Assembly (NCBI GenBank): GCA_014871385.1
Contig: CM026428.1
Location: 15,096,476 to 15,160,475, forward strand
Direction of reading: 5' to 3'
DNA from: Ceratodon purpureus
Lineage: Eukaryota; Streptophyta; Bryopsida; Pseudoditrichales; Ditrichaceae
Length of the DNA stretch: 64,000 bases
Program-made: the position numbers and the translations under genes
Shown: piece by piece, positions 2,424-40,647 of the stretch
Layout: every line of letters starts with the position of its first letter
Position numbering within the stretch: the first letter of the stretch is position 1
The notes under the pieces: model-generated
What the model saw: only the letters and a program-made list of their open reading frames with translations
Told to the model about the DNA's origin: nothing
Databases searched by the model: none

Positions 2424-2427
2424 TTAA

Positions 2428-4981: not shown

Positions 4982-5436
4982 AACATCATCATCCCATCAG
5001 CTCAGCTCAAGTCATTCATCTCACCACGCCAAGTGACCAATCCAAGAATCCGAATACCCAAGTACTCCAAAGTGAAACTTTCCATTCCACAAGCCAGCCA
5101 GTACAAACATCGGCGCACAGACGGCACCAAAGCGGCATCAAAGCCCACACGGCCTGCTCGTCCTCATCATCTCTACAACGCCTCGAAAGCCACTAGCTCT
5201 CCTTCCCGGATTCCCATTCAAAACCCATGCGAAACCACAGCCTACATACACATATATTCTGCGCACTACGCAGCTGGCTCGCTACACAGCATTTCATATA
5301 CACAGTTTACTCAGGTCTACACATACACATTATGTCCATTGGCTCACTATGATCCACTCGATGTCCTCCGCTCCTCTCCGGCCATGTACAATACCGCTCA
5401 GAATTCCAAGAGTCGCCCAGATTTGTGCCCAATTCC

Positions 5437-5901
5437 TCAGACTTCCACCAGCAGGTGGACGAGCACCTTGTTGCCGCACAGCAGCTTGATCACCTTGCCC
5501 TCCACGCCCTCCACGACCTCCTCCACCACGTCCAGCAGCAGCTCCGTCACGCCATTGATCAGCTTGCCCAACAGGCTCAGGTTCACGTTCAGCACGGCCT
5601 TCACCTTGAGCAGCTTGCCGTTCTTGTCGAACACGAAGAGCTGCAGCTTCAGCAGGTTCAGCACCTCCAGCTTCACCGTCACGGGGCCCAGCACCGCCAG
5701 CTGCCCCTTCTTGCAGTCCAGCACCTTGCCCACGCCCACAACCAGGCGCACGTCTTCCTGGCACTTGTTGTTCAGCTTAATCAGTACATTGGCATTCAAC
5801 AGACCGAGACCGCCCTTGGTGGCACTGGCCTCCGTCATGCAGAAGGCGGCCACCACCAGGAAGCCAAGGACCAACACCGCAGACGCTGATCGACCGGCCA
5901 T
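5437..5901 (-). CDS. gene A: small secreted protein of unrecognised family, 154 aa
   Basis: Identical in protein sequence to genes B, C and D, and a paralogue of gene E. Start chosen at ATG 5901, the first true ATG in the frame and the position aligned with gene E's start. Residues 1-27 form a clear signal peptide (hydrophobic VLVLGFLVVAAF, cleavage near ATEASA-type residues), so secretion is likely. The mature part is rich in Leu, Val and Lys, with alternating hydrophobic stretches that look beta-rich. Shared landmarks with E are NNKC (Cys47), LDCKKG (Cys63), VLGP, FVFDKNGKLLK, GVTEL, DVVEEV and VIKLLC (Cys142). High G/C at third positions suggests selection on an expressed gene. A TATA box lies about 120 bp upstream. 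The function is unknown; I do not recognise the family. Confidence 0.85.
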   Translation of the reverse strand: MAGRSASAVLVLGFLVVAAFCMTEASATKGGLGLLNANVLIKLNNKCQEDVRLVVGVGKVLDCKKGQLAVLGPVTVKLEVLNLLKLQLFVFDKNGKLLKVKAVLNVNLSLLGKLINGVTELLLDVVEEVVEGVEGKVIKLLCGNKVLVHLLVEV

Positions 5902-6022
5902 ATTGACGCAAGCAGTGGAAGACACTAGAGAACGCGATTCCGCGAGAATGTGAAGAAGTCGATCCCAGGTTGCGGAGTGAGCTGATGAGATTGGTGTGAT
6001 GTGTGCCGGCCGGGTGCGGGTT

Positions 6023-6028
6023 CTTATA
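6023..6028 (-). promoter_or_regulatory. TATA box of gene A
   Basis: TATAAG on the minus strand, about 120 bp before the ATG and in the same place in genes A-E. The conserved CGCATCGACACGCACC block lies just upstream. Confidence 0.75.
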
Positions 6029-6642
6029 CTGCGTCAGGCATGGTGCGTGTCGATGCGAAATGCGATCGCTCTCATGCACGGCAGAGGCCACCTCCCACCC
6101 GAAGCAATTCGAGCAGCCGGCCTGGTAAATTTGGAGCTCGGTAGCTCTAGAGCTAGAGCTGTCGAGGCAGGTCAGTGCGTGTCAGCGGGTTTCGGGATCC
6201 CAAAGTTACATGCACGTAGCTCGTTACTCATGCAACATTCAGTGTCACATACAACGGGCTGACGTCGCAAAACCCGCCCCTAGATTTCGTCTAGGCTCGC
6301 GGACGCCAGAACCGCTTTCGCTCTGGAGTTGCGTCTCCCCGACAAGTGGTGCCGTGGTGCTTATATTAGCCTTCCCTTTTGTCAACGCACAGTTCCAGAT
6401 TCACTCCGAGCTCCGAAGATCGGAGCAGGCCTCAGGCTGTGTGTCGCATCCGGGAATCTAATTATCTATCGGCCGAGCACTGTGCATTTCGCACCATAAT
6501 TGACGTTGGCACGGGGTTCGCATCCCGGAGCAAGTGAGCGTGTCCACATGCCAGGACCTCATGAGCCAAGATCAACGCAAGTCAACTGCTCGGCATCGAA
6601 AGTTAACCAAAGATGCCTCTACTTTTTTATCCATTGGAGTTC

Positions 6643-7570
6643 AGGTCAGAAGGAATGGTGTTATTGCTGAAATAATCGCTCTCGTCACAGGCCGTGTTTG
6701 GGTAACGCAGGTACATGCATGTCTTGTTCTCGTTCAGTGTTTTCTGTAGGGGCAGGATGTGATTTTTAAAATATCGTCTGAAGTTCTCTATTATTCTTAT
6801 CGCCTCTTGTACGGATATTGTTGATGATCATTTCAGCGTTGTTGCGAGTTGTCAACTTTCAGAGAGCATGCAGGGTGGGTCCCTGGAACTGTCAAATTTT
6901 GCACAACAGAACTCTGCAATCTTTTTGGTGAGTGACTTCCCATTTACGCGGTTAGTCTCCAAATTGACGTCGTCTCCTACTCGAGCTGCGCAGGAAGTGC
7001 GGAGGCAGTAACTACCGCCGCGGTTGAGTCCGAGCTGGAACTTTAGTGGTGCATCAGGAACTAAAATCGGTACTCAACCTTGAGCCTGGTGGTGCCACCT
7101 GTACACACCCATCCTACCGCGGAACGACACTTTGAATCAGCTGATTCCTCCGACACTTTCGCATTCCCGATGATATCTGACATCTCCACCAGCTGTGAAG
7201 ACTCGGAAGTGGTGTGGCCGAGCCATTGCATAAGCACGTCGGGACTCGGGAGGCGCTGACTTGGCTGCTGAGGTTGGTGTCCTTCTTATTCGGGCGCTAC
7301 CTTGATGGTAGCATGGTCGGACCATTCATGCCATGCCACTTCGGAGCGATGGACGTCGAATACTTCGCAGGATCGCAAGAGGTTTGCGGGGACATTGCCA
7401 CCACCATCCAGCGAGTCTCTCTGGAAGTAGCCGAAGTTGGTGTTCACTTTCATCGATCGGGTGGAGTTTCACGGAACCTAAGTTGGCACCAGCCTCATGG
7501 CGTGCTTTGATGGTAGAGAATATATTAGAAACTCCGATCCCTTGCTGGGTGAATGGAATGAAATGTACGA
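6643..7570. other. loop of nested repeat, G/C-richer unassigned segment
   Basis: This segment lies between units A and B and is mirrored at 29066-29993. It is richer in G and C than the flanking transposon DNA. Overlapping short frames (for example 7214-7510 plus, opening with GTG) have some coding look but no ATG near their start and no family I recognise. It may be a decayed gene or upstream regulatory DNA shared by the divergent genes A and B. Confidence 0.4.
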
Positions 7571-7906
7571 AACTGAAAATGTAAATGGTGATTTCCCTTG
7601 GTTACTGAAGACACTCCGATTAGACTATGTCATTGTGTATGAATGGTTACTTAGAAGAAGAAATTTCATAAGTTAGAATTTATAGTACACAGTCCATTTT
7701 TGGTTAAGTTGGTGCTCTTTGCCATTCTTAGAGTCCATATGGTTCCTTTTTATAAACTCATTGAGTGGTACTTAGAAAAGGTTTTTTATTATACTTAGTC
7801 TAAACCAAACCCTACTTCTTCAAAACATCCTTGCATGCAGCACGTTGCTTTTGGAATAATATGTAGTAAAGTTTTTTTATAATATAGGAAGTTTCGTACC
7901 ATAGTT

Positions 7907-8647
7907 GGGGGAAAGCATGATAAAGTGTACAACAAAGTGACCGATGTGACCAAATGGAAGTGATTATGAAGTGTGCTGTTTTTCAAAGCTCATATCTGAT
8001 TCTGAGCATTTTGGTGTGGTTTTCGAGTGTTTTAGTCACTTTTTAAGGTGTCACAAGGTATCTTATATACATATTCAGGAAGAAAGTATCTTCAATTGAA
8101 ACTTAATTTGATCACTAGTTCTAAATCATGAAAATGAACTTTTTCAATGTCTTCATTTCTTCATTTGGGGCCCTCTATTGACTTTAGAGGATGTTTTTTC
8201 CAATTTAAAAAACAATGTTCGGTGAAGAAAAAGTAACAAAAACTATCGCTGAAGTGACCCTATTAAAAAACATCCTTGCGATACTTTTGGAATCCTAAAT
8301 CAAACAATGAGTATATGAATTGTCTACTTTAGAATACCTCTTAAACATACAGAGAGCCCCACTTCATCAAAAGTGGTTTTTAGATAGTTTTTGATACTTT
8401 TGTAGCCACTTTTTCAAATATTTGTATCCACTTTGCTTGGGTTTGAAGCCCTCATACAATAACTTTAAAGTGTCTACTTAGCACGAAACTTTTCCGAGTT
8501 GTACAAAAACAAGTTGAGAATCTATATTAGCAAAAAAAAATTGACTTCAATTACATCTTTCCATCACTTTTGTGCAGTTTTTGCGGAAGGGCTGAAATTA
8601 ACAAATAGATAAGCACTTTTTCTGTACACTTTATCATGCTTCCCCCC
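7907..8647. mobile_element. 740-bp family MITE M1 (left arm)
   Basis: A 741-bp element with inverted ends GGGGGAAAGCATGATAAAG and CTTTATCATGCTTCCCCCC. The 4-bp target duplication AGTT is at 7903-7906 and 8648-8651. There is no transposase frame. It shares length, ends and internal blocks with M2 and M3 but is diverged, so it is a separate subtype. Confidence 0.75.
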
Positions 8648-8651
8648 AGTT

Positions 8652-9400
8652 ACATGATTTGTCATTTCTTAACAAACTTATAATTTTTGAATGCTTTAAT
8701 ATAAAGAAGAAGTTAAAAGTTTCTTTGAATAAAAGCCGACATGGTCTTCTGTGCATAATACGGAACTGACGAGTTCCTCATATTTTCCCCTATGTAGATT
8801 AGAGCCAACGCTCATATCTCCAGCACCTACTTTCTCAACAGAATTGACACCCAATTTGAGTTCAATCCAAGCACAATAAACGATTTTTTGTCCTTTAATA
8901 ATGGTTGTTGTCAATTTAACGTCTTTAATTCGAATATATTTAATGGCCTTAATTTTGTGAACTTCCATATTTTAGAAAATTGGAATTGATTTCTAATGAC
9001 CGTGCTAACCTACAATTAAAATTTATTGATGCCCCTCTTAACATCAAAATCCAACTTCATATCCAAACTAAGTTTCAATAATTATAGAAAATTACAAAGT
9101 TTCTAATTATGTTTTTCTAAACATGCATTTCCTAAGTCCCTCCACTAGAAACCCTTGCATGTGATTACATTAAAGAGACTAATCTGTAACCTTTTGATAC
9201 CTAAGACATGAAAGAGACTAATTTTAACCAGATCGCATCCTCCAACCCCTTACAACGCTAACTTACAACGCTAATGATAAAACTGAGCTGTTTTATATAC
9301 GTAGTACATGATACTGGCATGCAAAAACAATAAAAGCATGTCCAAAATACAGTTTACTTCGACTTCCAAGTCCCCAACATCATTTCAAATCCAAGACAAT
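8652..9400. other. inner part of loop between units A and B
   Basis: AT-rich DNA mirrored at 27236-27984. A 90-codon minus frame (8696-8968, opening MEVHKIKAIKYIRIKDVK) is intact in both arms but has no recognised domain, so I do not call it a gene. Confidence 0.4.
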
Positions 9401-9747
9401 GAACTCCAATGGATAAAAAAGTAGAGGCATCTTTGGTTAACTTTCGATGCCGAGCAGTTGACTTGCGTTGATCTTGGCTCATGAGGTCCTGGCATGTGGA
9501 CACGCTCACTTGCTCCGGGATGCGAACCCCGTGCCAACGTCAATTATGGTGCGAAATGCACAGTGCTCGGCCGATAGATAATTAGATTCCCGGATGCGAC
9601 ACACAGCCTGAGGCCTGCTCCGATCTTCGGAGCTCGGAGTGAATCTGGAACTGTGCGTTGACAAAAGGGAAGGCTAATATAAGCACCACGGCACCACTTG
9701 TCGGGGAGACGCAACTCCAGAGCGAAAGCGGTTCTGGCGTCCGCGAG

Positions 9748-9764
9748 CCTAGACGAAATCTAGG
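9748..9764. promoter_or_regulatory. short inverted repeat in gene B upstream region
   Basis: CCTAGA and TCTAGG are separated by five bases, about 250 bp upstream of the TATA box, and are followed by GGGGCGGG and a GACGTC core. A second small palindrome, AGCTCTAGAGCT, lies near 9890. Copies exist in units A, C and D. They could be factor-binding sites, but there is no direct evidence. Confidence 0.3.
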
Positions 9765-10014
9765 GGCGGGTTTTGCGACGTCAGCCCGTTGTATGTGACA
9801 CTGAATGTTGCATGAGTAACGAGCTACGTGCATGTAACTTTGGGATCCCGAAACCCGCTGACACGCACTGACCTGCCTCGACAGCTCTAGCTCTAGAGCT
9901 ACCGAGCTCCAAATTTACCAGGCCGGCTGCTCGAATTGCTTCGGGTGGGAGGTGGCCTCTGCCGTGCATGAGAGCGATCGCATTTCGCATCGACACGCAC
10001 CATGCCTGACGCAG

Positions 10015-10020
10015 TATAAG
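10015..10020 (+). promoter_or_regulatory. TATA box of gene B
   Basis: TATAAG lies 127 bp before ATG 10142. The block CGCATCGACACGCACC (9986-10001) just upstream is shared with genes E and F despite general divergence there, which marks a conserved core promoter. Confidence 0.8.
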
Positions 10021-10141
10021 AACCCGCACCCGGCCGGCACACATCACACCAATCTCATCAGCTCACTCCGCAACCTGGGATCGACTTCTTCACATTCTCG
10101 CGGAATCGCGTTCTCTAGTGTCTTCCACTGCTTGCGTCAAT

Positions 10142-10606
10142 ATGGCCGGTCGATCAGCGTCTGCGGTGTTGGTCCTTGGCTTCCTGGTGGTGGCCGCCTT
10201 CTGCATGACGGAGGCCAGTGCCACCAAGGGCGGTCTCGGTCTGTTGAATGCCAATGTACTGATTAAGCTGAACAACAAGTGCCAGGAAGACGTGCGCCTG
10301 GTTGTGGGCGTGGGCAAGGTGCTGGACTGCAAGAAGGGGCAGCTGGCGGTGCTGGGCCCCGTGACGGTGAAGCTGGAGGTGCTGAACCTGCTGAAGCTGC
10401 AGCTCTTCGTGTTCGACAAGAACGGCAAGCTGCTCAAGGTGAAGGCCGTGCTGAACGTGAACCTGAGCCTGTTGGGCAAGCTGATCAATGGCGTGACGGA
10501 GCTGCTGCTGGACGTGGTGGAGGAGGTCGTGGAGGGCGTGGAGGGCAAGGTGATCAAGCTGCTGTGCGGCAACAAGGTGCTCGTCCACCTGCTGGTGGAA
10601 GTCTGA
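10142..10606 (+). CDS. gene B: small secreted protein of unrecognised family, 154 aa
   Basis: Same protein as genes A, C and D. The first true ATG, 10142, follows TCAAT and opens MAGRSASAVLVLGF, the signal peptide. Mature-region cysteines are 47, 63 and 142. The stop is TGA after VEV. The gene is divergent from gene A (5' ends face each other across about 4.2 kb) and convergent with gene C across the palindrome centre. No intron is needed. The reverse strand is also open over the gene, an effect of G/C-rich codon choice. Function unknown. Confidence 0.87.
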   Translation: MAGRSASAVLVLGFLVVAAFCMTEASATKGGLGLLNANVLIKLNNKCQEDVRLVVGVGKVLDCKKGQLAVLGPVTVKLEVLNLLKLQLFVFDKNGKLLKVKAVLNVNLSLLGKLINGVTELLLDVVEEVVEGVEGKVIKLLCGNKVLVHLLVEV

Positions 10607-11061
10607 GGAATTGGGCACAAATCTGGGCGACTCTTGGAATTCTGAGCGGTATTGTACATGGCCGGAGAGGAGCGGAGGACATCGAGTGGATCATAGTGAG
10701 CCAATGGACATAATGTGTATGTGTAGACCTGAGTAAACTGTGTATATGAAATGCTGTGTAGCGAGCCAGCTGCGTAGTGCGCAGAATATATGTGTATGTA
10801 GGCTGTGGTTTCGCATGGGTTTTGAATGGGAATCCGGGAAGGAGAGCTAGTGGCTTTCGAGGCGTTGTAGAGATGATGAGGACGAGCAGGCCGTGTGGGC
10901 TTTGATGCCGCTTTGGTGCCGTCTGTGCGCCGATGTTTGTACTGGCTGGCTTGTGGAATGGAAAGTTTCACTTTGGAGTACTTGGGTATTCGGATTCTTG
11001 GATTGGTCACTTGGCGTGGTGAGATGAATGACTTGAGCTGAGCTGATGGGATGATGATGTT

Positions 11062-12007
11062 GTGGCGTTTTTCAGGCTGATTATTCTCGCTTTCGGTATT
11101 AAATGTTGTGTTCGTCTTCCGTTTTTCACCTATGAGATCTCTCTTTGTAGGGTATGGTAATGATCCGAGAATTTAATTATCTGTCTTTGTTTTCTTAATG
11201 ATTTAATTCTGATCAGATTTGACACAGAGGATTAGCTGTTTTTGGGGCCCGGGATTAGAGAGAGAGGGATCGTAACAGTGGCGTTGGTTAGGTTATTTTG
11301 CGGTATGAGTAGAGGTACTTTGTCTTGGATAAAACAATTGCGGTTGGTTTATTGACTGCGGATGAGAGCAGTTTCCATCAAACGTACTACGTCATATTCC
11401 ATGACTTGAATAATTTGGAAGCGACTGCTTCGTCACTCTATGTGTAGTATTTTGCTTTATACAGAAGAGAAATTGTGGCATAGTAAATTGTAACATTTGA
11501 CGACATCCTAGTAACCAAAGTAATTCTTGTTCACCACAGTTCTAGCAAGGCTTCCACAATTAATCAACTTACATGTATGTATAGAACATATATAATGTGA
11601 CAAGACTCTTGTTGGGAATAACTATAATAATATTTGGTTGAATGAGAAATCGGTGCACACATTGGCTTGTAGAATGGTAATGGGGTTCAATATATTATAT
11701 TTCTACACATTCTTGGCTGTAATCTTGCATTCGCAAATCAAATACATATCAATTTAAGCACCTTGTAAAGAGCACCCTAACTCTCATCGGAACATTACAA
11801 CCTGCTATCTTACAAGTAGGGCCTACTCTTCAAGAGATTTACATATCCAACATGTGAGACCTACATATCCAATGTGTGGAGTGATCAAAGTAATACAAAT
11901 GGATTGTTCAAAAGTTCAAAATCCTTGGCAATTATTGATTAAGATAAAGAACAATTCAAACGTTCCTACATGTATAATGAAATTCATCTTTTTTTGTGAT
12001 GGCCAAT
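11062..12007. other. intergenic part of left arm
   Basis: AT-rich sequence with a GAGAGAGAG tract near 11258 and no ORF of note. Mirrored at 24629-25574. Confidence 0.5.
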
Positions 12008-12747
12008 GGGGGAGAGCACAATAAAGTGGACCACAAAGTGCAAAATGTGACCACCAACAAGTGAATATGAAGTGTGCTGTTTTTTAAGGCTTAGAGCTAA
12101 TTTTTAGCATTTTGGTTTAGTTTTTGAGCATTTTAGTCACTTTCTAGGGTGTCATAAGGTATCTTATATACATCTTCTTAAAAAGAACATCTTCAATTGA
12201 AACTTAATGTGACCACTAGTTCTTATTCATGAAAATGAAAATTTCCAAAGTCTTAATTTCTTCATTTGGAGCCATCTATTGTCTTTAGAGGATGTTTTTT
12301 TCAAATTGAAATACAATGTTCGGTGAAAAAAAACGCACAAAAAGTACCGCGGAAGTGACCCTCTTAAAAAGTATCCTTGCGGTACTTTTGGAACCCTAAA
12401 CCAATCAATGAGTATATTAATTGACTATTTTAGAATACTTCTTAAACATATAGAGTGCACCGCGAAATTAAAAGTGATTTCGGACAAAACCCTAAACCGT
12501 TATGTTCACTTTTCCAAATGACGACCATTCACTTTGTCTGACTTTGACGTCTCCGTTTTCCATTGTAAACTCAATATCTTTTCTCGCAACTTTGGGAAGT
12601 TGAAGAAGATCAAGTCTACTTTCCGTATCCCAAACTTAATTTTGCATCAACATAACGTAAATCCCACTTTCTCTAGTCTTTACAGAAGGGGCTGAAATTG
12701 GAAAAAAGATAAGCACTTTTGTGGTTCACTTTATTGTGCTTCCCCCC
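12008..12747. mobile_element. 740-bp family MITE M2 (left arm)
   Basis: A 740-bp element with ends GGGGGAGAGCACAATAAAG and CTTTATTGTGCTTCCCCCC. The target duplication CAAT is at 12004-12007 and 12748-12751. Near the middle, AAAAGTACCGC (12340-12350) and GCGGTACTTTT (12379-12389) form an internal hairpin that is also recognisable in M1 and M3. No coding capacity. Confidence 0.78.
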
Positions 12748-12751
12748 CAAT

Positions 12752-13357
12752 TGCTTTTACATCTTCAAACGAAGTAACTAATCAAATAAAGAAAAACTTT
12801 ATTTGCCAAACAAATTATTTGATGTTCCAAAAAATTAATGACTTGAATAATAGAAGATTTAGTAACCAAATATTTCTTGCAAAGTTGCAAAGGTAAAAAG
12901 AGTCTATAAAGGAGGAAAAATCCACATTCCTCAATGACCAATTTTAATATCCTATCATTTGTTGTAGATACTAAGATTCATGGATTATAATTGTCTTGAA
13001 TACAAGTTCTATCTACATCTCAAACTTAATAAACCACGTGTATAGAACATCTTTTGCATGTTTTTACATGTTTGAAGGGCATTACATCAAACATATGATA
13101 CCAATTTCTTTTTATTTAAAAAAACATGTACAAATGATGTACATCAAATACACAATTTTATTTATTTTTTTTTAAAATTGCATGTTATTTGTACATCACT
13201 TGTATGTTGTTTCTTATATAAATGTATTGTCATTGTATGTTTCACGTAATGTCCATCACACCTACAAGAAACAGTGCAAAAGACATGATATGCTAAGTCT
13301 GAGATGTGTCAAATCGTAAGTTGTAACAAACCGCCCTTGTAGGCTACTTTTTAGACT
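12752..13357. other. AT-rich intergenic DNA, left arm
   Basis: Contains a local AT-rich hairpin-like stretch near 13105-13200 (ACATGTACAAATGATGTACA and an inverted counterpart). No gene seen. Mirrored at 23279-23884. Confidence 0.45.
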
Positions 13358-13361
13358 TTAA

Positions 13362-14221
13362 CCCATAAAGTTCTGAGGGTATTTTTCATTAAAACTGCCT
13401 CAAAACAGCCCTTCTTCAAAGCAAGGTAGATTTTGCAAACTTGGGGTCTTTTTTAGAACATCTAACCGTAAGATCTTGTAGCTAACTTCTATGTCTACAT
13501 GTCCACCAGATCTCACATACTCATTCCTCACCAATTGCAAGATCGTAACGTTCAAAGTAGAAAAACAAGTTTTTTTCCCTGCAAAAAAAGGGGACAGCAT
13601 AGTTTTGAAGGCCCAAAAAACCATTTTTTTGCATTATGGATTTTGGGGGTTTTGATGCACGTCAAAGAAGACTGAGTTAGCTAATTGTTCTAAGAAAATT
13701 TTATTCAAATAAGTTGTGGAAAGTTGCCAAAAAAATCATTTTCCGCTAGGGGGTATACTGAAATTCACAAACAAAGGCCGTTTTTGGACAATAAAAATAG
13801 CATATGAAAAAAATTTGGATTAAAAATCCGAACGGTGGGAACATGCTCTACTGCCTTATCTATAAACAGATATTTCTATTTTTGAAAAATCTCAAAATCT
13901 CAATTTTTGGTGGGATTTCAAAGTTTCGTCTTTGGGCAGATTTTGGCAGTTTTGGGCAGTTTTGGGCAGTTTTGGGCAGAATTTGCTACATTCACAGTGG
14001 CTTAGAAAAATTCAGCAGCTGCCCAACGAGCAGCGTTTGACACTTAAACCTTCATAACTTTTGATCCCAATGTCGGAATTGAAAAATAAAAGTACCCACA
14101 CGAAGATCTCCGAACAACCCACCTTCAACAAAAATTTCAGAAAATCCAGATATAAATTGCATTCATAGGTACATGCCCAAATTCCAAAAAAGCCCAAATG
14201 TGGCAGATTGTCCTTTAGGGG
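13362..14221. mobile_element. TTAA-flanked piggyBac-like element P3 (left arm)
   Basis: TTAA at 13358-13361 and 14222-14225 brackets an 860-bp element with ends CCCATAAAG and GTCCTTTAGGGG. It contains three tandem TTTTGGGCAG repeats near 13943-13979. Short frames inside are repeat sequence. Most arm-to-arm differences that I found in the giant palindrome fall inside this element. Confidence 0.7.
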
Positions 14222-14225
14222 TTAA

Positions 14226-14542
14226 AGAGTGTCCCGCAAAGCTCCACTCCTCCTTGTGACCTCATAGGTTGTAATTGTCACCCCCAACCTTGGCTAGGAT
14301 TCTATAGCGTCCGCCCGCCTACCTATGTGCCCCTAGACTCTTGTTTGTAGGCTCATGCTTCTTTAAAGGTGCAACGCCTTGATCATTGTTGCCTTCCACA
14401 TTTTGTAGAGGCTGAACAATTCCGAAAGCCAAAATAACAGTTCTTTGAAAGCATAGCTTCCCAAAGCCACCACTTGTGTAGACTACTCCATCGTCAGAAG
14501 TGCAGCTCATTTTCAAAGGCGGAGGCGCAACACAATTGTGCA
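14226..14542. other. unassigned fragment between two elements, left arm
   Basis: More even base composition than its neighbours. On the minus strand, a frame of about 60 codons (KMSCTSDDGVVYTSGGFGKL and onward) runs to a stop at 14319. It may be a gene relic cut by MITE M3. The full 84-codon frame starts inside M3, so it is not an intact gene. Mirrored at 22093-22409. Confidence 0.35.
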
Positions 14543-14546
14543 GTCT

Positions 14547-15288
14547 GGAGAGAAGCACAATAAAGTGGACCAAAAAAGTGCTTAACTATTTGTTAGTTTG
14601 AGCCATTTTGCAAAAATTGCACAAAAGTGATGGAAAGATGTAATTGAAGTCAATTTTTTTTGCTAATATAGATTCTCAACTTGTTTTTCTACAACTTAGA
14701 AAAGTTTTGTGCAAAGTAGAAACTTTAAAGTTATTGCATGAGGGCTTAAATCCAAGCAAAGTGAATGCAGTCATTTGAAAAAGTGGCTAGAAAATAATCA
14801 AAAACTATCTAAAAATCACTTTTGATGAAGTGGTGCCCTCTGTATGTTTAAGAGGTATTCTAAAATAGTCAATAATTCATATACTCATTAATTGGTTTAG
14901 GGTTCCAAAAGTACTGCAAGGCTGTTTTTTTAGAAGGTCACTTCCGCAGTACTTTTTGTGAGTTTTTTTTCACCAAACATTATTTTTTAAATCTAAAAAA
15001 ACATCCTCTAAAGACAATAGAGGGCACTAAATGAAGAAATTAAGACTTTGGAAAAGTTCATTTTTATGATTTAGAACTAGTGGTCAAATTAAGTTTCAAT
15101 TGAAGATGTATTTTTTACAAAGATGTTTGTAAGATACGTTATGACACCTTAGAAAGTGACTAAAATTCTCAAAAACTACACCAAAATGCTCAAAATCAGC
15201 TTTGAACTTTAAAAAGCAGCACACTTCATATTCACTTCCTAGTGATCACATGTTGCTCTTTGTGGTCCACTTTATTGTGCTCTCCCCC
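14547..15288. mobile_element. 740-bp family MITE M3 (left arm)
   Basis: A 742-bp element in the opposite orientation to M2. Ends are GGAGAGAAGCACAATAAAG and CTTTATTGTGCTCTCCCCC. The target duplication GTCT is at 14543-14546 and 15289-15292. Confidence 0.77.
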
Positions 15289-15292
15289 GTCT

Positions 15293-15957
15293 ACACAAAG
15301 ATTGTTGGATTGCAATAGTAGTGGTTGCTCCACACAATAATGGCTTCGAGGAGGGCGTCAGGGGTTTGTAGATTAGGCGATGGACAAGGATCAAGACTCG
15401 ACGCCAAATGTGAGTATAACTTTTGTCTTGATAAGGTTAATTGTTGAATTTTGGAATTAGGGTTTACAGAAAGACGGTTGATATTTGGTGCTATTTTGGA
15501 ACAAAGTCTTTAGTTCATGTGTGTTTTAGGATTTTGAAAGACTCTTGTCCATGTGGGATATGATTAGAGCCTTTACCTCACACATAAATTATTGCTACCT
15601 CCCGATAAGATTAAACATTCTTGAAGGTTTAGGATTTTTCAATTCTAACATTTATTGGTGTTGTAGAGAGGTCTAGACTTTGTTTGTGCATGAATTTAGT
15701 GGACTCTTGACAATGTTTGGAAATTTTTGTGTAGAAAAAAAGTGCTCCAAGCCTCTAGGCCCCTACCAACATTGGAAAGATTTATCCCAACATGTCTAAT
15801 CTAACACATACTAAGGTTGTGGGTGCATTGATGAAGCTAGCAATAGTCCTTGATGTCAATGCCTTAGCCAAGTCTAATTGGTAGAAGGTGCTAAAGAATG
15901 TGACTATGTCATTGTTTTTTTTATAAGCTTGTGACATTCGTGGTTTATGAATGTAGT
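15293..15957. other. innermost part of left arm
   Basis: Mixed composition, no gene recognised. Mirrored at 20678-21342. Confidence 0.45.
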
Positions 15958-19776: not shown

Positions 19777-19780
19777 TTAA

Positions 19781-20598: not shown

Positions 20599-21346
20599 TT
20601 AAGTCCAACATGCACCTTTTAAAAGATAAACTATTGAAGCTAAAAGCAAGTTAGAAGCTTGCATGATTCAATACTATGCTACATTCATAAACCACGAATG
20701 TCACAAGCTTATAAAAAAAACAATGACATAGTCACATTCTTTAGCACCTTCTACCAATTAGACTTGGCTAAGGCATTGACATCAAGGACTATTGCTAGCT
20801 TCATCAATGCACCCACAACCTTAGTATGTGTTAGATTAGACATGTTGGGATAAATCTTTCCAATGTTGGTAGGGGCCTAGAGGCTTGGAGCACTTTTTTT
20901 CTACACAAAAATTTCCAAACATTGTCAAGAGTCCACTAAATTCATGCACAAACAAAGTCTAGACCTCTCTACAACACCAATAAATGTTAGAATTGAAAAA
21001 TCCTAAACCTTCAAGAATGTTTAATCTTATCGGGAGGTAGCAATAATTTATGTGTGAGGTAAAGGCTCTAATCATATCCCACATGGACAAGAGTCTTTCA
21101 AAATCCTAAAACACACATGAACTAAAGACTTTGTTCCAAAATAGCACCAAATATCAACCGTCTTTCTGTAAACCCTAATTCCAAAATTCAACAATTAACC
21201 TTATCAAGACAAAAGTTATACTCACATTTGGCGTCGAGTCTTGATCCTTGTCCATCGCCTAATCTACAAACCCCTGACGCCCTCCTCGAAGCCATTATTG
21301 TGTGGAGCAACCACTACTATTGCAATCCAACAATCTTTGTGTAGAC

Positions 21347-22088
21347 GGGGGAGAGCACAATAAAGTGGACCACAAAGAGCAACATGTGATCACTAGGAAG
21401 TGAATATGAAGTGTGCTGCTTTTTAAAGTTCAAAGCTGATTTTGAGCATTTTGGTGTAGTTTTTGAGAATTTTAGTCACTTTCTAAGGTGTCATAACGTA
21501 TCTTACAAACATCTTTGTAAAAAATACATCTTCAATTGAAACTTAATTTGACCACTAGTTCTAAATCATAAAAATGAACTTTTCCAAAGTCTTAATTTCT
21601 TCATTTAGTGCCCTCTATTGTCTTTAGAGGATGTTTTTTTAGATTTAAAAAATAATGTTTGGTGAAAAAAAACTCACAAAAAGTACTGCGGAAGTGACCT
21701 TCTAAAAAAACAGCCTTGCAGTACTTTTGGAACCCTAAACCAATTAATGAGTATATGAATTATTGACTATTTTAGAATACCTCTTAAACATACAGAGGGC
21801 ACCACTTCATCAAAAGTGATTTTTAGATAGTTTTTGATTATTTTCTAGCCACTTTTTCAAATGACTGCATTCACTTTGCTTGGATTTAAGCCCTCATGCA
21901 ATAACTTTAAAGTTTCTACTTTGCACAAAACTTTTCTAAGTTGTAGAAAAACAAGTTGAGAATCTATATTAGCAAAAAAAATTGACTTCAATTACATCTT
22001 TCCATCACTTTTGTGCAATTTTTGCAAAATGGCTCAAACTAACAAATAGTTAAGCACTTTTTTGGTCCACTTTATTGTGCTTCTCTCC
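21347..22088. mobile_element. 740-bp family MITE M3 (right-arm copy)
   Basis: Mirror of 14547-15288, with the complementary target duplication AGAC on each side. It arose by duplication of the arm, not by independent insertion. Confidence 0.75.
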
Positions 22089-22413
22089 AGACTGCACAAT
22101 TGTGTTGCGCCTCCGCCTTTGAAAATGAGCTGCACTTCTGACGATGGAGTAGTCTACACAAGTGGTGGCTTTGGGAAGCTATGCTTTCAAAGAACTGTTA
22201 TTTTGGCTTTCGGAATTGTTCAGCCTTTACAAAATGTGGAAGGCAACAATGATCAAGGCGTTGCACCTTTAAAGAAGCATGAGCCTACAAACAAGAGTCT
22301 AGGGGCACATAGGTAGGCGGGCGGACGCTATAGAATCCTAGCCAAGGTTGGGGGTGACAATTACAACCTATGAGGTCACAAGGAGGAGTGGAGCTTTGCG
22401 GGACACTCTTTAA

Positions 22414-23274
22414 CCCCTAAAGGACAATCTGCCACATTTGGGCTTTTTTGGAATTTGGGCATGTACCTATGAATGCAATTTATATCTGGATTTTCTGAAA
22501 TTTTTGTTGAAGGTGGGTTGTTCGGAGATCTTCGTGTGGGTACTTTTATTTTTCAATTCCGACATTGGGATCAAAAGTTATGAAGGTTTAAGTGTCAAAC
22601 GCTGCTCGTTGGGCAGCTGCTGAATTTTTCTAAGCCACTGTGAATGTAGCAAATTCTGCCCAAAACTGCCCAAAACTGCCCAAAACTGCCAAAATCTGCC
22701 CAAAGACGAAACTTTGAAATCCCACCAAAAATTGAGATTTTGAGATTTTTCAAAAATAGAAATATCTGTTTATAGATAAGGCAGTAGAGCATGTTCCCAC
22801 CGTTCGGATTTTTAATCCAAATTTTTTTCATATGCTATTTTTATTGTCCAAAAACGGCCTTTGTTTGTGAATTTCAGTATACCCCCTAGCGGAAAATGAT
22901 TTTTTTGGCAACTTTCCACAACTTATTTGAATAAAATTTTCTTAGAACAATTAGCTAACTCAGTCTTCTTTGACGTGCATCAAAACCCCCAAAATCCATA
23001 ATGCAAAAAAATGGTTTTTTGGGCCTTCAAAACTATGCTGTCCCCTTTTTTTTGCAGGGAAAAAAACTTGTTTTTCTACTTTGAACGTTACGATCTTGCA
23101 ATTGGTGAGGAATGAGTATGTAAGATCTAGTGGACATGTAGACATAGAAGTTAGCTACAAGATCTTACGGTTAGATGTTCTAAAAAAGACCCCAAGTTTG
23201 CAAAATCTACCTTGCTTTGAAGAAGGGCTGTTTTGAGGCAGTTTTAATGAAAAATACCCTCAGAACTTTATGGG
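22414..23274. mobile_element. TTAA-flanked piggyBac-like element P3 (right-arm copy)
   Basis: Mirror of 13362-14221, with TTAA at 22410-22413 and 23275-23278. It carries one extra T in the CCCCTTTTTTTTGC run and two substitutions near 23120-23127 relative to the left copy. Confidence 0.7.
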
Positions 23275-23888
23275 TTAAAGTCTAAAAAGTAGCCTACAAG
23301 GGCGGTTTGTTACAACTTACGATTTGACACATCTCAGACTTAGCATATCATGTCTTTTGCACTGTTTCTTGTAGGTGTGATGGACATTACGTGAAACATA
23401 CAATGACAATACATTTATATAAGAAACAACATACAAGTGATGTACAAATAACATGCAATTTTAAAAAAAAATAAATAAAATTGTGTATTTGATGTACATC
23501 ATTTGTACATGTTTTTTTAAATAAAAAGAAATTGGTATCATATGTTTGATGTAATGCCCTTCAAACATGTAAAAACATGCAAAAGATGTTCTATACACGT
23601 GGTTTATTAAGTTTGAGATGTAGATAGAACTTGTATTCAAGACAATTATAATCCATGAATCTTAGTATCTACAACAAATGATAGGATATTAAAATTGGTC
23701 ATTGAGGAATGTGGATTTTTCCTCCTTTATAGACTCTTTTTACCTTTGCAACTTTGCAAGAAATATTTGGTTACTAAATCTTCTATTATTCAAGTCATTA
23801 ATTTTTTGGAACATCAAATAATTTGTTTGGCAAATAAAGTTTTTCTTTATTTGATTAGTTACTTCGTTTGAAGATGTAAAAGCAATTG

Positions 23889-24628
23889 GGGGGGAAGCAC
23901 AATAAAGTGAACCACAAAAGTGCTTATCTTTTTTCCAATTTCAGCCCCTTCTGTAAAGACTAGAGAAAGTGGGATTTACGTTATGTTGATGCAAAATTAA
24001 GTTTGGGATACGGAAAGTAGACTTGATCTTCTTCAACTTCCCAAAGTTGCGAGAAAAGATATTGAGTTTACAATGGAAAACGGAGACGTCAAAGTCAGAC
24101 AAAGTGAATGGTCGTCATTTGGAAAAGTGAACATAACGGTTTAGGGTTTTGTCCGAAATCACTTTTAATTTCGCGGTGCACTCTATATGTTTAAGAAGTA
24201 TTCTAAAATAGTCAATTAATATACTCATTGATTGGTTTAGGGTTCCAAAAGTACCGCAAGGATACTTTTTAAGAGGGTCACTTCCGCGGTACTTTTTGTG
24301 CGTTTTTTTTCACCGAACATTGTATTTCAATTTGAAAAAAACATCCTCTAAAGACAATAGATGGCTCCAAATGAAGAAATTAAGACTTTGGAAATTTTCA
24401 TTTTCATGAATAAGAACTAGTGGTCACATTAAGTTTCAATTGAAGATGTTCTTTTTAAGAAGATGTATATAAGATACCTTATGACACCCTAGAAAGTGAC
24501 TAAAATGCTCAAAAACTAAACCAAAATGCTAAAAATTAGCTCTAAGCCTTAAAAAACAGCACACTTCATATTCACTTGTTGGTGGTCACATTTTGCACTT
24601 TGTGGTCCACTTTATTGTGCTCTCCCCC
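23889..24628. mobile_element. 740-bp family MITE M2 (right-arm copy)
   Basis: Mirror of 12008-12747, with ATTG on both sides as target duplication. Confidence 0.76.
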
Positions 24629-26029
24629 ATTGGCCATCACAAAAAAAGATGAATTTCATTATACATGTAGGAACGTTTGAATTGTTCTTTATCTTAATCA
24701 ATAATTGCCAAGGATTTTGAACTTTTGAACAATCCATTTGTATTACTTTGATCACTCCACACATTGGATATGTAGGTCTCACATGTTGGATATGTAAATC
24801 TCTTGAAGAGTAGGCCCTACTTGTAAGATAGCAGGTTGTAATGTTCCGATGAGAGTTAGGGTGCTCTTTACAAGGTGCTTAAATTGATATGTATTTGATT
24901 TGCGAATGCAAGATTACAGCCAAGAATGTGTAGAAATATAATATATTGAACCCCATTACCATTCTACAAGCCAATGTGTGCACCGATTTCTCATTCAACC
25001 AAATATTATTATAGTTATTCCCAACAAGAGTCTTGTCACATTATATATGTTCTATACATACATGTAAGTTGATTAATTGTGGAAGCCTTGCTAGAACTGT
25101 GGTGAACAAGAATTACTTTGGTTACTAGGATGTCGTCAAATGTTACAATTTACTATGCCACAATTTCTCTTCTGTATAAAGCAAAATACTACACATAGAG
25201 TGACGAAGCAGTCGCTTCCAAATTATTCAAGTCATGGAATATGACGTAGTACGTTTGATGGAAACTGCTCTCATCCGCAGTCAATAAACCAACCGCAATT
25301 GTTTTATCCAAGACAAAGTACCTCTACTCATACCGCAAAATAACCTAACCAACGCCACTGTTACGATCCCTCTCTCTCTAATCCCGGGCCCCAAAAACAG
25401 CTAATCCTCTGTGTCAAATCTGATCAGAATTAAATCATTAAGAAAACAAAGACAGATAATTAAATTCTCGGATCATTACCATACCCTACAAAGAGAGATC
25501 TCATAGGTGAAAAACGGAAGACGAACACAACATTTAATACCGAAAGCGAGAATAATCAGCCTGAAAAACGCCACAACATCATCATCCCATCAGCTCAGCT
25601 CAAGTCATTCATCTCACCACGCCAAGTGACCAATCCAAGAATCCGAATACCCAAGTACTCCAAAGTGAAACTTTCCATTCCACAAGCCAGCCAGTACAAA
25701 CATCGGCGCACAGACGGCACCAAAGCGGCATCAAAGCCCACACGGCCTGCTCGTCCTCATCATCTCTACAACGCCTCGAAAGCCACTAGCTCTCCTTCCC
25801 GGATTCCCATTCAAAACCCATGCGAAACCACAGCCTACATACACATATATTCTGCGCACTACGCAGCTGGCTCGCTACACAGCATTTCATATACACAGTT
25901 TACTCAGGTCTACACATACACATTATGTCCATTGGCTCACTATGATCCACTCGATGTCCTCCGCTCCTCTCCGGCCATGTACAATACCGCTCAGAATTCC
26001 AAGAGTCGCCCAGATTTGTGCCCAATTCC

Positions 26030-26494
26030 TCAGACTTCCACCAGCAGGTGGACGAGCACCTTGTTGCCGCACAGCAGCTTGATCACCTTGCCCTCCACGC
26101 CCTCCACGACCTCCTCCACCACGTCCAGCAGCAGCTCCGTCACGCCATTGATCAGCTTGCCCAACAGGCTCAGGTTCACGTTCAGCACGGCCTTCACCTT
26201 GAGCAGCTTGCCGTTCTTGTCGAACACGAAGAGCTGCAGCTTCAGCAGGTTCAGCACCTCCAGCTTCACCGTCACGGGGCCCAGCACCGCCAGCTGCCCC
26301 TTCTTGCAGTCCAGCACCTTGCCCACGCCCACAACCAGGCGCACGTCTTCCTGGCACTTGTTGTTCAGCTTAATCAGTACATTGGCATTCAACAGACCGA
26401 GACCGCCCTTGGTGGCACTGGCCTCCGTCATGCAGAAGGCGGCCACCACCAGGAAGCCAAGGACCAACACCGCAGACGCTGATCGACCGGCCAT
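26030..26494 (-). CDS. gene C: small secreted protein of unrecognised family, 154 aa
   Basis: Identical protein to genes A, B and D, starting at ATG 26494. Signal peptide at residues 1-27, mature cysteines 47, 63 and 142, and the DKNGKLLK, GVTEL and VIKLLC landmarks. It lies convergent with gene B across the palindrome centre and divergent from gene D across a 4.2-kb interval. Function unknown. Confidence 0.87.
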   Translation of the reverse strand: MAGRSASAVLVLGFLVVAAFCMTEASATKGGLGLLNANVLIKLNNKCQEDVRLVVGVGKVLDCKKGQLAVLGPVTVKLEVLNLLKLQLFVFDKNGKLLKVKAVLNVNLSLLGKLINGVTELLLDVVEEVVEGVEGKVIKLLCGNKVLVHLLVEV

Positions 26495-26615
26495 ATTGAC
26501 GCAAGCAGTGGAAGACACTAGAGAACGCGATTCCGCGAGAATGTGAAGAAGTCGATCCCAGGTTGCGGAGTGAGCTGATGAGATTGGTGTGATGTGTGCC
26601 GGCCGGGTGCGGGTT

Positions 26616-26621
26616 CTTATA
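26616..26621 (-). promoter_or_regulatory. TATA box of gene C
   Basis: TATAAG on the minus strand in the same context as genes A, B and D. Confidence 0.75.
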
Positions 26622-27235
26622 CTGCGTCAGGCATGGTGCGTGTCGATGCGAAATGCGATCGCTCTCATGCACGGCAGAGGCCACCTCCCACCCGAAGCAA
26701 TTCGAGCAGCCGGCCTGGTAAATTTGGAGCTCGGTAGCTCTAGAGCTAGAGCTGTCGAGGCAGGTCAGTGCGTGTCAGCGGGTTTCGGGATCCCAAAGTT
26801 ACATGCACGTAGCTCGTTACTCATGCAACATTCAGTGTCACATACAACGGGCTGACGTCGCAAAACCCGCCCCTAGATTTCGTCTAGGCTCGCGGACGCC
26901 AGAACCGCTTTCGCTCTGGAGTTGCGTCTCCCCGACAAGTGGTGCCGTGGTGCTTATATTAGCCTTCCCTTTTGTCAACGCACAGTTCCAGATTCACTCC
27001 GAGCTCCGAAGATCGGAGCAGGCCTCAGGCTGTGTGTCGCATCCGGGAATCTAATTATCTATCGGCCGAGCACTGTGCATTTCGCACCATAATTGACGTT
27101 GGCACGGGGTTCGCATCCCGGAGCAAGTGAGCGTGTCCACATGCCAGGACCTCATGAGCCAAGATCAACGCAAGTCAACTGCTCGGCATCGAAAGTTAAC
27201 CAAAGATGCCTCTACTTTTTTATCCATTGGAGTTC

Positions 27236-27984
27236 ATTGTCTTGGATTTGAAATGATGTTGGGGACTTGGAAGTCGAAGTAAACTGTATTTTGGACATGC
27301 TTTTATTGTTTTTGCATGCCAGTATCATGTACTACGTATATAAAACAGCTCAGTTTTATCATTAGCGTTGTAAGTTAGCGTTGTAAGGGGTTGGAGGATG
27401 CGATCTGGTTAAAATTAGTCTCTTTCATGTCTTAGGTATCAAAAGGTTACAGATTAGTCTCTTTAATGTAATCACATGCAAGGGTTTCTAGTGGAGGGAC
27501 TTAGGAAATGCATGTTTAGAAAAACATAATTAGAAACTTTGTAATTTTCTATAATTATTGAAACTTAGTTTGGATATGAAGTTGGATTTTGATGTTAAGA
27601 GGGGCATCAATAAATTTTAATTGTAGGTTAGCACGGTCATTAGAAATCAATTCCAATTTTCTAAAATATGGAAGTTCACAAAATTAAGGCCATTAAATAT
27701 ATTCGAATTAAAGACGTTAAATTGACAACAACCATTATTAAAGGACAAAAAATCGTTTATTGTGCTTGGATTGAACTCAAATTGGGTGTCAATTCTGTTG
27801 AGAAAGTAGGTGCTGGAGATATGAGCGTTGGCTCTAATCTACATAGGGGAAAATATGAGGAACTCGTCAGTTCCGTATTATGCACAGAAGACCATGTCGG
27901 CTTTTATTCAAAGAAACTTTTAACTTCTTCTTTATATTAAAGCATTCAAAAATTATAAGTTTGTTAAGAAATGACAAATCATGT
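27236..27984. other. loop between units C and D, left part
   Basis: Mirror of 8652-9400, including the unassigned 90-codon frame at 27668-27940 on the plus strand. No gene is called. Confidence 0.4.
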
Positions 27985-27988
27985 AACT

Positions 27989-28729
27989 GGGGGGAAGCAT
28001 GATAAAGTGTACAGAAAAAGTGCTTATCTATTTGTTAATTTCAGCCCTTCTGCAAAAACTGCACAAAAGTGATGGAAAGATGTAATTGAAGTCAATTTTT
28101 TTTTGCTAATATAGATTCTCAACTTGTTTTTGTACAACTCGGAAAAGTTTCGTGCTAAGTAGACACTTTAAAGTTATTGTATGAGGGCTTCAAACCCAAG
28201 CAAAGTGGATACAAATATTTGAAAAAGTGGCTACAAAAGTATCAAAAACTATCTAAAAACCACTTTTGATGAAGTGGGGCTCTCTGTATGTTTAAGAGGT
28301 ATTCTAAAGTAGACAATTCATATACTCATTGTTTGATTTAGGATTCCAAAAGTATCGCAAGGATGTTTTTTAATAGGGTCACTTCAGCGATAGTTTTTGT
28401 TACTTTTTCTTCACCGAACATTGTTTTTTAAATTGGAAAAAACATCCTCTAAAGTCAATAGAGGGCCCCAAATGAAGAAATGAAGACATTGAAAAAGTTC
28501 ATTTTCATGATTTAGAACTAGTGATCAAATTAAGTTTCAATTGAAGATACTTTCTTCCTGAATATGTATATAAGATACCTTGTGACACCTTAAAAAGTGA
28601 CTAAAACACTCGAAAACCACACCAAAATGCTCAGAATCAGATATGAGCTTTGAAAAACAGCACACTTCATAATCACTTCCATTTGGTCACATCGGTCACT
28701 TTGTTGTACACTTTATCATGCTTTCCCCC
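27989..28729. mobile_element. 740-bp family MITE M1 (right-arm copy)
   Basis: Mirror of 7907-8647 with AACT on both sides. Confidence 0.74.
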
Positions 28730-29065
28730 AACTATGGTACGAAACTTCCTATATTATAAAAAAACTTTACTACATATTATTCCAAAAGCAACGTGCTGCA
28801 TGCAAGGATGTTTTGAAGAAGTAGGGTTTGGTTTAGACTAAGTATAATAAAAAACCTTTTCTAAGTACCACTCAATGAGTTTATAAAAAGGAACCATATG
28901 GACTCTAAGAATGGCAAAGAGCACCAACTTAACCAAAAATGGACTGTGTACTATAAATTCTAACTTATGAAATTTCTTCTTCTAAGTAACCATTCATACA
29001 CAATGACATAGTCTAATCGGAGTGTCTTCAGTAACCAAGGGAAATCACCATTTACATTTTCAGTT

Positions 29066-29993
29066 TCGTACATTTCATTCCATTCACCCAGCAAGGGATC
29101 GGAGTTTCTAATATATTCTCTACCATCAAAGCACGCCATGAGGCTGGTGCCAACTTAGGTTCCGTGAAACTCCACCCGATCGATGAAAGTGAACACCAAC
29201 TTCGGCTACTTCCAGAGAGACTCGCTGGATGGTGGTGGCAATGTCCCCGCAAACCTCTTGCGATCCTGCGAAGTATTCGACGTCCATCGCTCCGAAGTGG
29301 CATGGCATGAATGGTCCGACCATGCTACCATCAAGGTAGCGCCCGAATAAGAAGGACACCAACCTCAGCAGCCAAGTCAGCGCCTCCCGAGTCCCGACGT
29401 GCTTATGCAATGGCTCGGCCACACCACTTCCGAGTCTTCACAGCTGGTGGAGATGTCAGATATCATCGGGAATGCGAAAGTGTCGGAGGAATCAGCTGAT
29501 TCAAAGTGTCGTTCCGCGGTAGGATGGGTGTGTACAGGTGGCACCACCAGGCTCAAGGTTGAGTACCGATTTTAGTTCCTGATGCACCACTAAAGTTCCA
29601 GCTCGGACTCAACCGCGGCGGTAGTTACTGCCTCCGCACTTCCTGCGCAGCTCGAGTAGGAGACGACGTCAATTTGGAGACTAACCGCGTAAATGGGAAG
29701 TCACTCACCAAAAAGATTGCAGAGTTCTGTTGTGCAAAATTTGACAGTTCCAGGGACCCACCCTGCATGCTCTCTGAAAGTTGACAACTCGCAACAACGC
29801 TGAAATGATCATCAACAATATCCGTACAAGAGGCGATAAGAATAATAGAGAACTTCAGACGATATTTTAAAAATCACATCCTGCCCCTACAGAAAACACT
29901 GAACGAGAACAAGACATGCATGTACCTGCGTTACCCAAACACGGCCTGTGACGAGAGCGATTATTTCAGCAATAACACCATTCCTTCTGACCT
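29066..29993. other. loop between units C and D, G/C-richer part
   Basis: Mirror of 6643-7570. The same uncertain coding-like frames are kept intact in both arms. Confidence 0.4.
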
Positions 29994-30607
29994 GAACTCC
30001 AATGGATAAAAAAGTAGAGGCATCTTTGGTTAACTTTCGATGCCGAGCAGTTGACTTGCGTTGATCTTGGCTCATGAGGTCCTGGCATGTGGACACGCTC
30101 ACTTGCTCCGGGATGCGAACCCCGTGCCAACGTCAATTATGGTGCGAAATGCACAGTGCTCGGCCGATAGATAATTAGATTCCCGGATGCGACACACAGC
30201 CTGAGGCCTGCTCCGATCTTCGGAGCTCGGAGTGAATCTGGAACTGTGCGTTGACAAAAGGGAAGGCTAATATAAGCACCACGGCACCACTTGTCGGGGA
30301 GACGCAACTCCAGAGCGAAAGCGGTTCTGGCGTCCGCGAGCCTAGACGAAATCTAGGGGCGGGTTTTGCGACGTCAGCCCGTTGTATGTGACACTGAATG
30401 TTGCATGAGTAACGAGCTACGTGCATGTAACTTTGGGATCCCGAAACCCGCTGACACGCACTGACCTGCCTCGACAGCTCTAGCTCTAGAGCTACCGAGC
30501 TCCAAATTTACCAGGCCGGCTGCTCGAATTGCTTCGGGTGGGAGGTGGCCTCTGCCGTGCATGAGAGCGATCGCATTTCGCATCGACACGCACCATGCCT
30601 GACGCAG

Positions 30608-30613
30608 TATAAG
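30608..30613 (+). promoter_or_regulatory. TATA box of gene D
   Basis: TATAAG lies 127 bp before ATG 30735, with the conserved CGCATCGACACGCACC upstream. Confidence 0.78.
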
Positions 30614-30734
30614 AACCCGCACCCGGCCGGCACACATCACACCAATCTCATCAGCTCACTCCGCAACCTGGGATCGACTTCTTCGCATTCTCGCGGAATC
30701 GCGTTCTCTAGTGTCTTCCACTGCTTGCGTCAAT

Positions 30735-31199
30735 ATGGCCGGTCGATCAGCGTCTGCGGTGTTGGTCCTTGGCTTCCTGGTGGTGGCCGCCTTCTGCATG
30801 ACGGAGGCCAGTGCCACCAAGGGCGGTCTCGGTCTGTTGAATGCCAATGTACTGATTAAGCTGAACAACAAGTGCCAGGAAGACGTGCGCCTGGTTGTGG
30901 GCGTGGGCAAGGTGCTGGACTGCAAGAAGGGGCAGCTGGCGGTGCTGGGCCCCGTGACGGTGAAGCTGGAGGTGCTGAACCTGCTGAAGCTGCAGCTCTT
31001 CGTGTTCGACAAGAACGGCAAGCTGCTCAAGGTGAAGGCCGTGCTGAACGTGAACCTGAGCCTGTTGGGCAAGCTGATCAATGGCGTGACGGAGCTGCTG
31101 CTGGACGTGGTGGAGGAGGTCGTGGAGGGCGTGGAGGGCAAGGTGATCAAGCTGCTGTGCGGCAACAAGGTGCTCGTCCACCTGCTGGTGGAAGTCTGA
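30735..31199 (+). CDS. gene D: small secreted protein of unrecognised family, 154 aa
   Basis: Same 154-residue protein as A, B and C. Start at ATG 30735, as in the other copies. The leader differs from the others by one base at 30685, so this copy can be told apart in transcript data. It stands in tandem (same direction, about 1.7 kb apart) with the diverged paralogue gene E, which probably reflects the ancestral arrangement. Function unknown. Confidence 0.87.
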   Translation: MAGRSASAVLVLGFLVVAAFCMTEASATKGGLGLLNANVLIKLNNKCQEDVRLVVGVGKVLDCKKGQLAVLGPVTVKLEVLNLLKLQLFVFDKNGKLLKVKAVLNVNLSLLGKLINGVTELLLDVVEEVVEGVEGKVIKLLCGNKVLVHLLVEV

Positions 31200-31638
31200 G
31201 GAATTGGGCACAAATCTGGGCGACTCTTGGAATTCTGAGCGGTATTGTACATGGCCGGAGAGGAGCGGAGGACATCGAGTGGATCATAGTGAGCCAATGG
31301 ACATAATGTGTATGTGTAGACCTGAGTAAACTGTGTATATGAAATGCTGTGTAGCGAGCCAGCTGCGTAGTGCGCAGAATATATGTGTATGTAGGCTGTG
31401 GTTTCGCATGGGTTTTGAATGGGAATCCGGGAAGGAGAGCTAGTGGCTTTCGAGGCGTTGTAGAGATGATGAGGACGAGCAGGCCGTGTGGGCTTTGATG
31501 CCGCTTTGGTGCCGTCTGTGCGCCGATGTTTGTACTGGCTGGCTTGTGGAATGGAAAGTTTCACTTTGGAGTACTTGGGTATTCGGATTCTTGGATTGGT
31601 CACTTGGCGTGGTGAGATGAATGACTTGAGCTGAGCTG

Positions 31639-35166: not shown

Positions 35167-38714
<3,548 letters not shown>

Positions 38715-40643: not shown

Positions 40644-40647
40644 TTAA

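Follow-up and report, generated by a model that had tools for sequence, protein, structure and literature searches.

We analysed a 64,000-nucleotide stretch of the moss Ceratodon purpureus (contig CM026428.1, positions 15,096,476 to 15,160,475), hereafter called the window, which contains a large palindrome carrying four copies of a gene for a predicted secreted protein of 154 amino acids. A first-pass annotation had described this locus as two near-identical inverted arms of about 11 kb around a 4.7-kb spacer, had noted that genes, miniature inverted-repeat transposable elements (MITEs) and non-coding DNA are all mirrored, and had likened the structure to the gene-conversion palindromes of sex chromosomes. 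Here we examine how the arms are built, what lies beyond them, and which history best accounts for their near-identity.

Architecture of the palindrome

A comparison of the window with itself by BLAST yields a single dominant inverted match, and a base-by-base walk along the two arms recovers the same palindrome. The arms measure 10,959 bp (arm 1) and 10,960 bp (arm 2), are separated by a spacer of 4722 bp, and are identical at 99.954% of substitutable sites. The earlier estimate of about five differences proved close to the exact tally, which comprises five substitutions (5951/30685, 8585/28051, 13507/23129, 13514/23122 and 14408/22227) and one indel in a homopolymer run (A7/A8 at 13590/23046). 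Paired coordinates sum to 36636, and to 36635 past the indel, exactly as had been reported. Five exact arm-to-arm runs exceed 500 bp (954, 2633, 4921, 818 and 1548 bp), compared with a longest exact reverse-complement match of 15-20 bp by chance in 20 first-order Markov simulations of the window. At E <= 1e-4 the spacer has no inverted match anywhere in the window, its own sequence included. The locus consists of inverted arms more than 99% identical that flank a non-repeated spacer, which is the arrangement of gene-conversion palindromes in the wide sense.

Near-identity extends over the full arms, gene units and non-coding DNA included, and all three MITE-like elements of arm 1 (M1, M2 and M3 in Table 1) have their counterparts in arm 2. 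Within each arm, a gene unit of 1.65 kb occurs as two nested inverted copies, giving four units in all (A and B in arm 1, B2 and A2 in arm 2). The four coding sequences that they carry are all open and identical to one another.

Both edges drawn by the first-pass annotation required revision. The inner edge had been placed at 15965/20670, but the final 9 bp aligned by BLAST contain two mismatches and are followed by no homology at all, so that the edge is better set at about 15956/20679. The outer edge at 4998/31638 had been taken as the end of the mirror, whereas homology runs on outwards to 3758/32916 at an ungapped identity of 85.4%.

Table 1. Positions of features in the window, counted from its first nucleotide
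Feature	Position	Strand	Basis or remark
Arm 1	4998..15956	+	5 substitutions and 1 indel relative to arm 2
Arm 2, inverted copy of arm 1	20679..31638	-	Base-by-base arm comparison
Spacer, with one TTAA-bounded MITE-like element at 19777-20602	15957..20678		Non-repeated
Flanking sequence outside arm 1, with the older mirror homology	3758..4997	+	1046 of 1225 aligned sites match 31639-32916
Flanking sequence outside arm 2, with the older mirror homology	31639..32916	-	Stops 42 bp inside gene C'
Gene unit A, arm 1, outer member of the nested pair	4973..6643	-	99.88% to 9400-11068, with 2 gap openings and no mismatch
Gene unit B, arm 1, inner member of the nested pair	9400..11068	+	Self-BLAST, four-copy alignment
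Gene unit B2	25568..27236	-	Self-BLAST, four-copy alignment
Gene unit A2	29993..31639	+	Sole private difference among four copies in 1647 columns
Gene A, predicted secreted protein of 154 aa, uninterrupted frame	5437..5901	-	Open reading frame and homologues
Gene B, coding sequence identical to A	10142..10606	+	Sequence comparison
Gene B2, coding sequence identical to A	26030..26494	-	Sequence comparison
Gene A2, coding sequence identical to A	30735..31199	+	Sequence comparison
Gene C, 5' region and first 14 codons of the C' counterpart, homology then stops	3758..4003	-	Alignment and frame
Gene C', diverged paralogue, open frame of 155 aa	32875..33342	+	dS 0.58 and dN 0.30 relative to A; 99% homologue P0132
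MITE-like element M1, mirrored in arm 2	7906..8648		Terminal inverted repeats
MITE-like element M2, M1 family, mirrored in arm 2	12008..12746		Terminal inverted repeats
MITE-like element M3, M1 family but inversely oriented, with a mirror copy in arm 2	14536..15298		Terminal inverted repeats
GTP1/OBG GTPase gene	36703-38120		Domain match
Homeodomain protein gene	44805-45284		Domain match
Trihelix (Myb/SANT-like) factor gene	50575-52137 (protein 50575-52107)	-	Domain match

Outer flanks and the history of the arms

In the outer flanks the mirror register continues unbroken for about 1.25 kb, with 68 gap columns (81.7% identity by BLAST, gaps included). Because the mirror persists in register at 85% identity outside arms that are 99.95% identical, the duplication looks older than arm identity would imply, as judged from this single genome, and the arms look to have been homogenised later. 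Conservation along the flank is patchy. Identity per 100 bp is 88-99% at 3758-4357 and 70-89% at 4358-4957 (597 and 588 sites; Fisher p = 6e-11, with counts rebuilt from rounded rows), and the lowest values (70-72%, at 4758-4957) directly adjoin the near-identical arm. Within the flank there is also an island at 4158-4357 of 96-99% identity, possibly a separate small conversion tract. At its outer end the mirror breaks off inside a coding sequence, such that gene C' is complete on the right and on the left is reduced to its 5' region and 14 codons.

Taken together, these observations lead us to favour, with a probability of roughly three in four (0.74), a history in which an old inverted duplication of a gene cluster was later homogenised by gene conversion between its arms. 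The 99.95% and 85% stretches form one alignment in mirror register, and homology-directed overwriting is thus their natural reading. Furthermore, this reading is supported by the mosaic of the outer flank, by the agreement of the four gene units at all but one of 1647 shared columns (the variant occurring in A2 alone), and by the mirroring of all three MITE-like elements, which are only 83-87% alike among themselves. All five arm substitutions are transitions, as young point mutations often are. Homologous recombination is reported to be efficient in C. purpureus, as it is in Physcomitrella (PMC8803787; PMC5675891), which makes conversion between the arms plausible, and tandem genes of Physcomitrella are reported to be very similar, with concerted evolution through gene conversion suspected (PMC3045890).

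In such a history, a cluster of moss secreted-protein genes would have been duplicated in inverse orientation over at least 12.2 kb (3758-15956 with 20679-32916), with a breakpoint at one outer end falling inside gene C'. The two halves would then have diverged to about 85% identity, a state still visible in the outer 1.25 kb. At a later stage, one arm would have overwritten the inner 10.96 kb of the other by homologous recombination without crossover, either through gene conversion or through break-induced copying of equal outcome, and the overwriting would have halted outwards at the stretch of about 70% identity (4758-4957). The same process may hold the four gene units identical both within and between arms, and its likely consequence would be dosage, in the form of four identical copies of one secreted-protein gene.

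The two age classes of sequence are widely separated. Arm divergence is 4.6e-4 (5/10,959), and that of the flank is 0.146 per site (0.16 after Jukes-Cantor correction), a ratio of about 350. At a rate near 1e-8 per site per year the arms would date back of order 20 thousand years and the flank of order 8 million years, although only the ratio of these figures is meaningful.

The edges of the gene units offer a finer view. Over about 15 bp outward of position 4998, units A, B and B2 agree at every column and A2 differs at six, while further out A and A2 share the older flank. This pattern fits conversion tracts that end differently between copies, but a later change in A2 alone would fit too.

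Several points weigh against homogenisation by conversion. First, the edges of units A and B have no older homology beside them (3000-9399 compared with 9300-13000), and for this reason the A/B pair, taken alone, could be a plain recent duplication. Second, the GC content of non-coding arm DNA (0.386 and 0.352) is not above that of the spacer (0.381), which gives no indication of long GC-biased conversion beyond the gene units; the units themselves are GC-rich (0.552, with a third-position GC content, GC3, of 0.89 in gene A and 0.78 in C'), but coding bias alone could account for this richness. Third, the apparent age of the palindrome is read from its flanking sequence within a single genome. 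Fourth, the five substitutions fit continuing conversion and one recent 11-kb tract alike. Finally, half of the six arm differences are crowded into 84 bp (13507-13590 / 23046-23129; chance 0.003 under uniform placement), a cluster that could mean a local assembly error. The arm stretch 13529-13587 inside this cluster resembles a repeat at 40815-40876.

Competing explanations and chromosomal setting

The strongest competitor is a single recent inverted duplication, in which one round of copying, through template switching or break-induced copying for instance, gave the second 11-kb block, and the identity has not been maintained since. Arms that differ over 10,959 bp by only five substitutions and one indel, and that lack GC elevation in their non-coding parts, are what such an event would leave. 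We nevertheless judge it improbable, because one would not expect an independent duplication of recent date to adjoin, in mirror register, 1.25 kb of older inverted homology. The position of the outer edge implies instead that copying followed existing homology, which amounts to something like conversion acting on an older palindrome. What chiefly separates the two readings is then whether copying occurred once or repeatedly.

An assembly artefact, whether a chimeric inverted read or a wrongly duplicated repeat, is much less probable still. Large inverted repeats are hard to assemble, one of the arm differences is a homopolymer length, and half of the differences are clustered as described above. 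In part, arm identity might also have been produced by polishing, which could alter the exact tally of differences. However, a foldback chimera would not bring with it a 4.7-kb non-repeated spacer, and flanks at 85% identity in register, with a gene truncated on one side and open on the other, are unlike a foldback product. Moss vegetative tissue is haploid, and if this holds for the sequenced plant, as we assume, the juxtaposition of two haplotypes is unlikely as well. A foldback artefact is therefore an unlikely origin for the palindrome.

The remaining question concerns the chromosome. The trihelix protein of the window is listed with a longest contig of 17,972,677 bp, whereas the U and V sex chromosomes of Ceratodon each exceed 100 Mb (PMC8000587) and are reported to be larger than the autosomes (PMC13120521). 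On the basis of this difference in size, the palindrome is probably autosomal. An ampliconic palindrome of the U or V chromosome, in which conversion guards against decay in a non-recombining region, is the least probable account: it could appeal to the large size of these chromosomes (PMC8000587), to comparable palindromes on the willow W (PMC7023750) and to the chance that the contig is a fragment of a U or V assembly, but a contig of 17.97 Mb speaks against it. Thus, the likeness to conversion palindromes that had been proposed at first pass gains from the in-register flanks and the homogenised nested units, but its sex-chromosome component is not supported, and the locus is probably not a sex-chromosome palindrome.

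We also considered the palindrome as a remedy for asexuality, by analogy with the blocks described in Folsomia. Those blocks span a wide range of synonymous divergence (Ks) and the authors reject concerted evolution as their explanation (PMC5490193).

The secreted protein, nearby elements and related palindromes

The 154-residue protein is rich in L, V and K and begins with a hydrophobic segment of 27 residues (mean hydropathy 1.5), which we read, from this property rather than from a dedicated predictor, as a probable signal peptide. Ten homologues were found, including M758_7G130300 (93%) and KC19_2G285200 (78%) of C. purpureus. Protein P0002 of C. purpureus M758 is 93% identical to the four mutually identical proteins, which, should it be their orthologue, would at most hint that the arms are more alike within a lineage than between lineages. 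For C', the closest relatives are P0132 (99%, on a contig of 3,789 bp), followed by M758_7G130300 and KC19_2G285200. The ratio of nonsynonymous to synonymous change (dN/dS) between A and C' is about 0.5, which suggests some constraint.

Pfam gave no family at E <= 0.01 for the frames of 198 and 201 amino acids that contain genes B and C', and a sequence search of the PDB gave three matches at E 0.7-0.94 and no solved relative. A scan of viral contigs gave 87 pattern matches, none of them confirmed, with records close to the genome of the window possibly excluded. An AlphaFold model built on a ten-row alignment (A1) has a mean predicted local distance difference test score (pLDDT) of 42.5 and is unusable for a fold search. 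Two metagenomic proteins, P0010 and P0011, join part of a member of this moss family to a segment that carries PF01509 (named H/ACA ribonucleoprotein subunit 4 by its source), and this fusion is probably a wrong gene model. Open reading frames of 306-377 amino acids cross the gene unit antisense to the secreted-protein frame (4820-5953 and its mirror copies); we dismissed them as genes, judging them to be by-products of codon bias (GC3 0.89). Likewise, we dropped the idea that the protein contributes to the antibacterial activity of Ceratodon exudates, since that activity is reported as below 1 kDa in size and not sensitive to proteinase K (PMC10057591). Dosage of one secreted protein would be the most economical use of the palindrome.

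The MITE-like elements M1 to M3 have terminal inverted repeats of about 35-41 bp. Two further elements of 0.82 kb (2424-3245 and 19777-20602) lie in direct orientation, are 85% alike, are bounded by TTAA and have terminal inverted repeats of about 19 bp, features seen in piggyBac-type MITEs; the first is about 0.5 kb beyond the outer end of arm 1, and the second, within the spacer, is separated from arm 2 by 76 bp. A further dispersed repeat family, with an internal inverted part, is represented at 40643-41574 and 56977-58108 (about 75% alike). Rfam gave no match at gathering thresholds within the window. The genes to the right of the palindrome are ordinary, and those for the GTPase, homeodomain and trihelix proteins are usable as synteny anchors.

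Human Y palindromes are larger than that of the moss. Those such as P6 resemble it in an arm similarity above 99.9% that is attributed to gene conversion, but unlike it they are sex-linked (PMC3723533), and similar structures are known from the human X (PMC8981503). The willow W palindromes offer a plant parallel, with an average identity above 99% among four arms, spacers of a few kb, repeated gene content and inferred conversion; in contrast to the moss palindrome, however, they occupy a female-specific sex-chromosome region, share arms of about 20 kb, and carry independent, unmirrored retrotransposon insertions (PMC7023750) where the moss elements are mirrored. Long inverted repeats of Caenorhabditis are alike in that inverted paralogous genes and the intergenic DNA between them are near-identical from arm to arm, in that a four-gene HSP16 locus is arranged as a palindrome, and in that gene conversion is one proposed mechanism. 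Their arms are far shorter (2207 bp at the F44E5.4 locus), and their age comes from a three-species comparison (PMC1803023) rather than from outer flanks. Finally, clustered fly hsp70 genes, which include inverted pairs, are homogenised by conversion, but there homogeneity decays away from the coding region (PMC3071340), whereas in the moss it covers 11 kb of genes, MITE-like elements and non-coding DNA and ends at a sharp outer edge.

Palindromes that evolve in concert are therefore a known kind, to which the moss case adds a probably autosomal plant setting, nested identical units and a sharp outer edge. The usual explanation of conversion palindromes is that they make up for the recombination that Y or W chromosomes lack. 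A broader proposal, which we hold to be doubtful, is that in this haploid-dominant plant the strong recombination of mosses keeps conversion going on an autosomal palindrome, maintaining four identical gene copies, and that mosses routinely carry such palindromes outside sex chromosomes. If conversion does continue, polymorphism for inversion of the spacer would be expected between isolates. The probably autosomal moss palindrome would be a test ground for whether strong homologous recombination alone can make and hold palindromes, and its outer edge, at which a single alignment drops from 99.95% to about 70% identity, would be a natural record of where conversion stopped.

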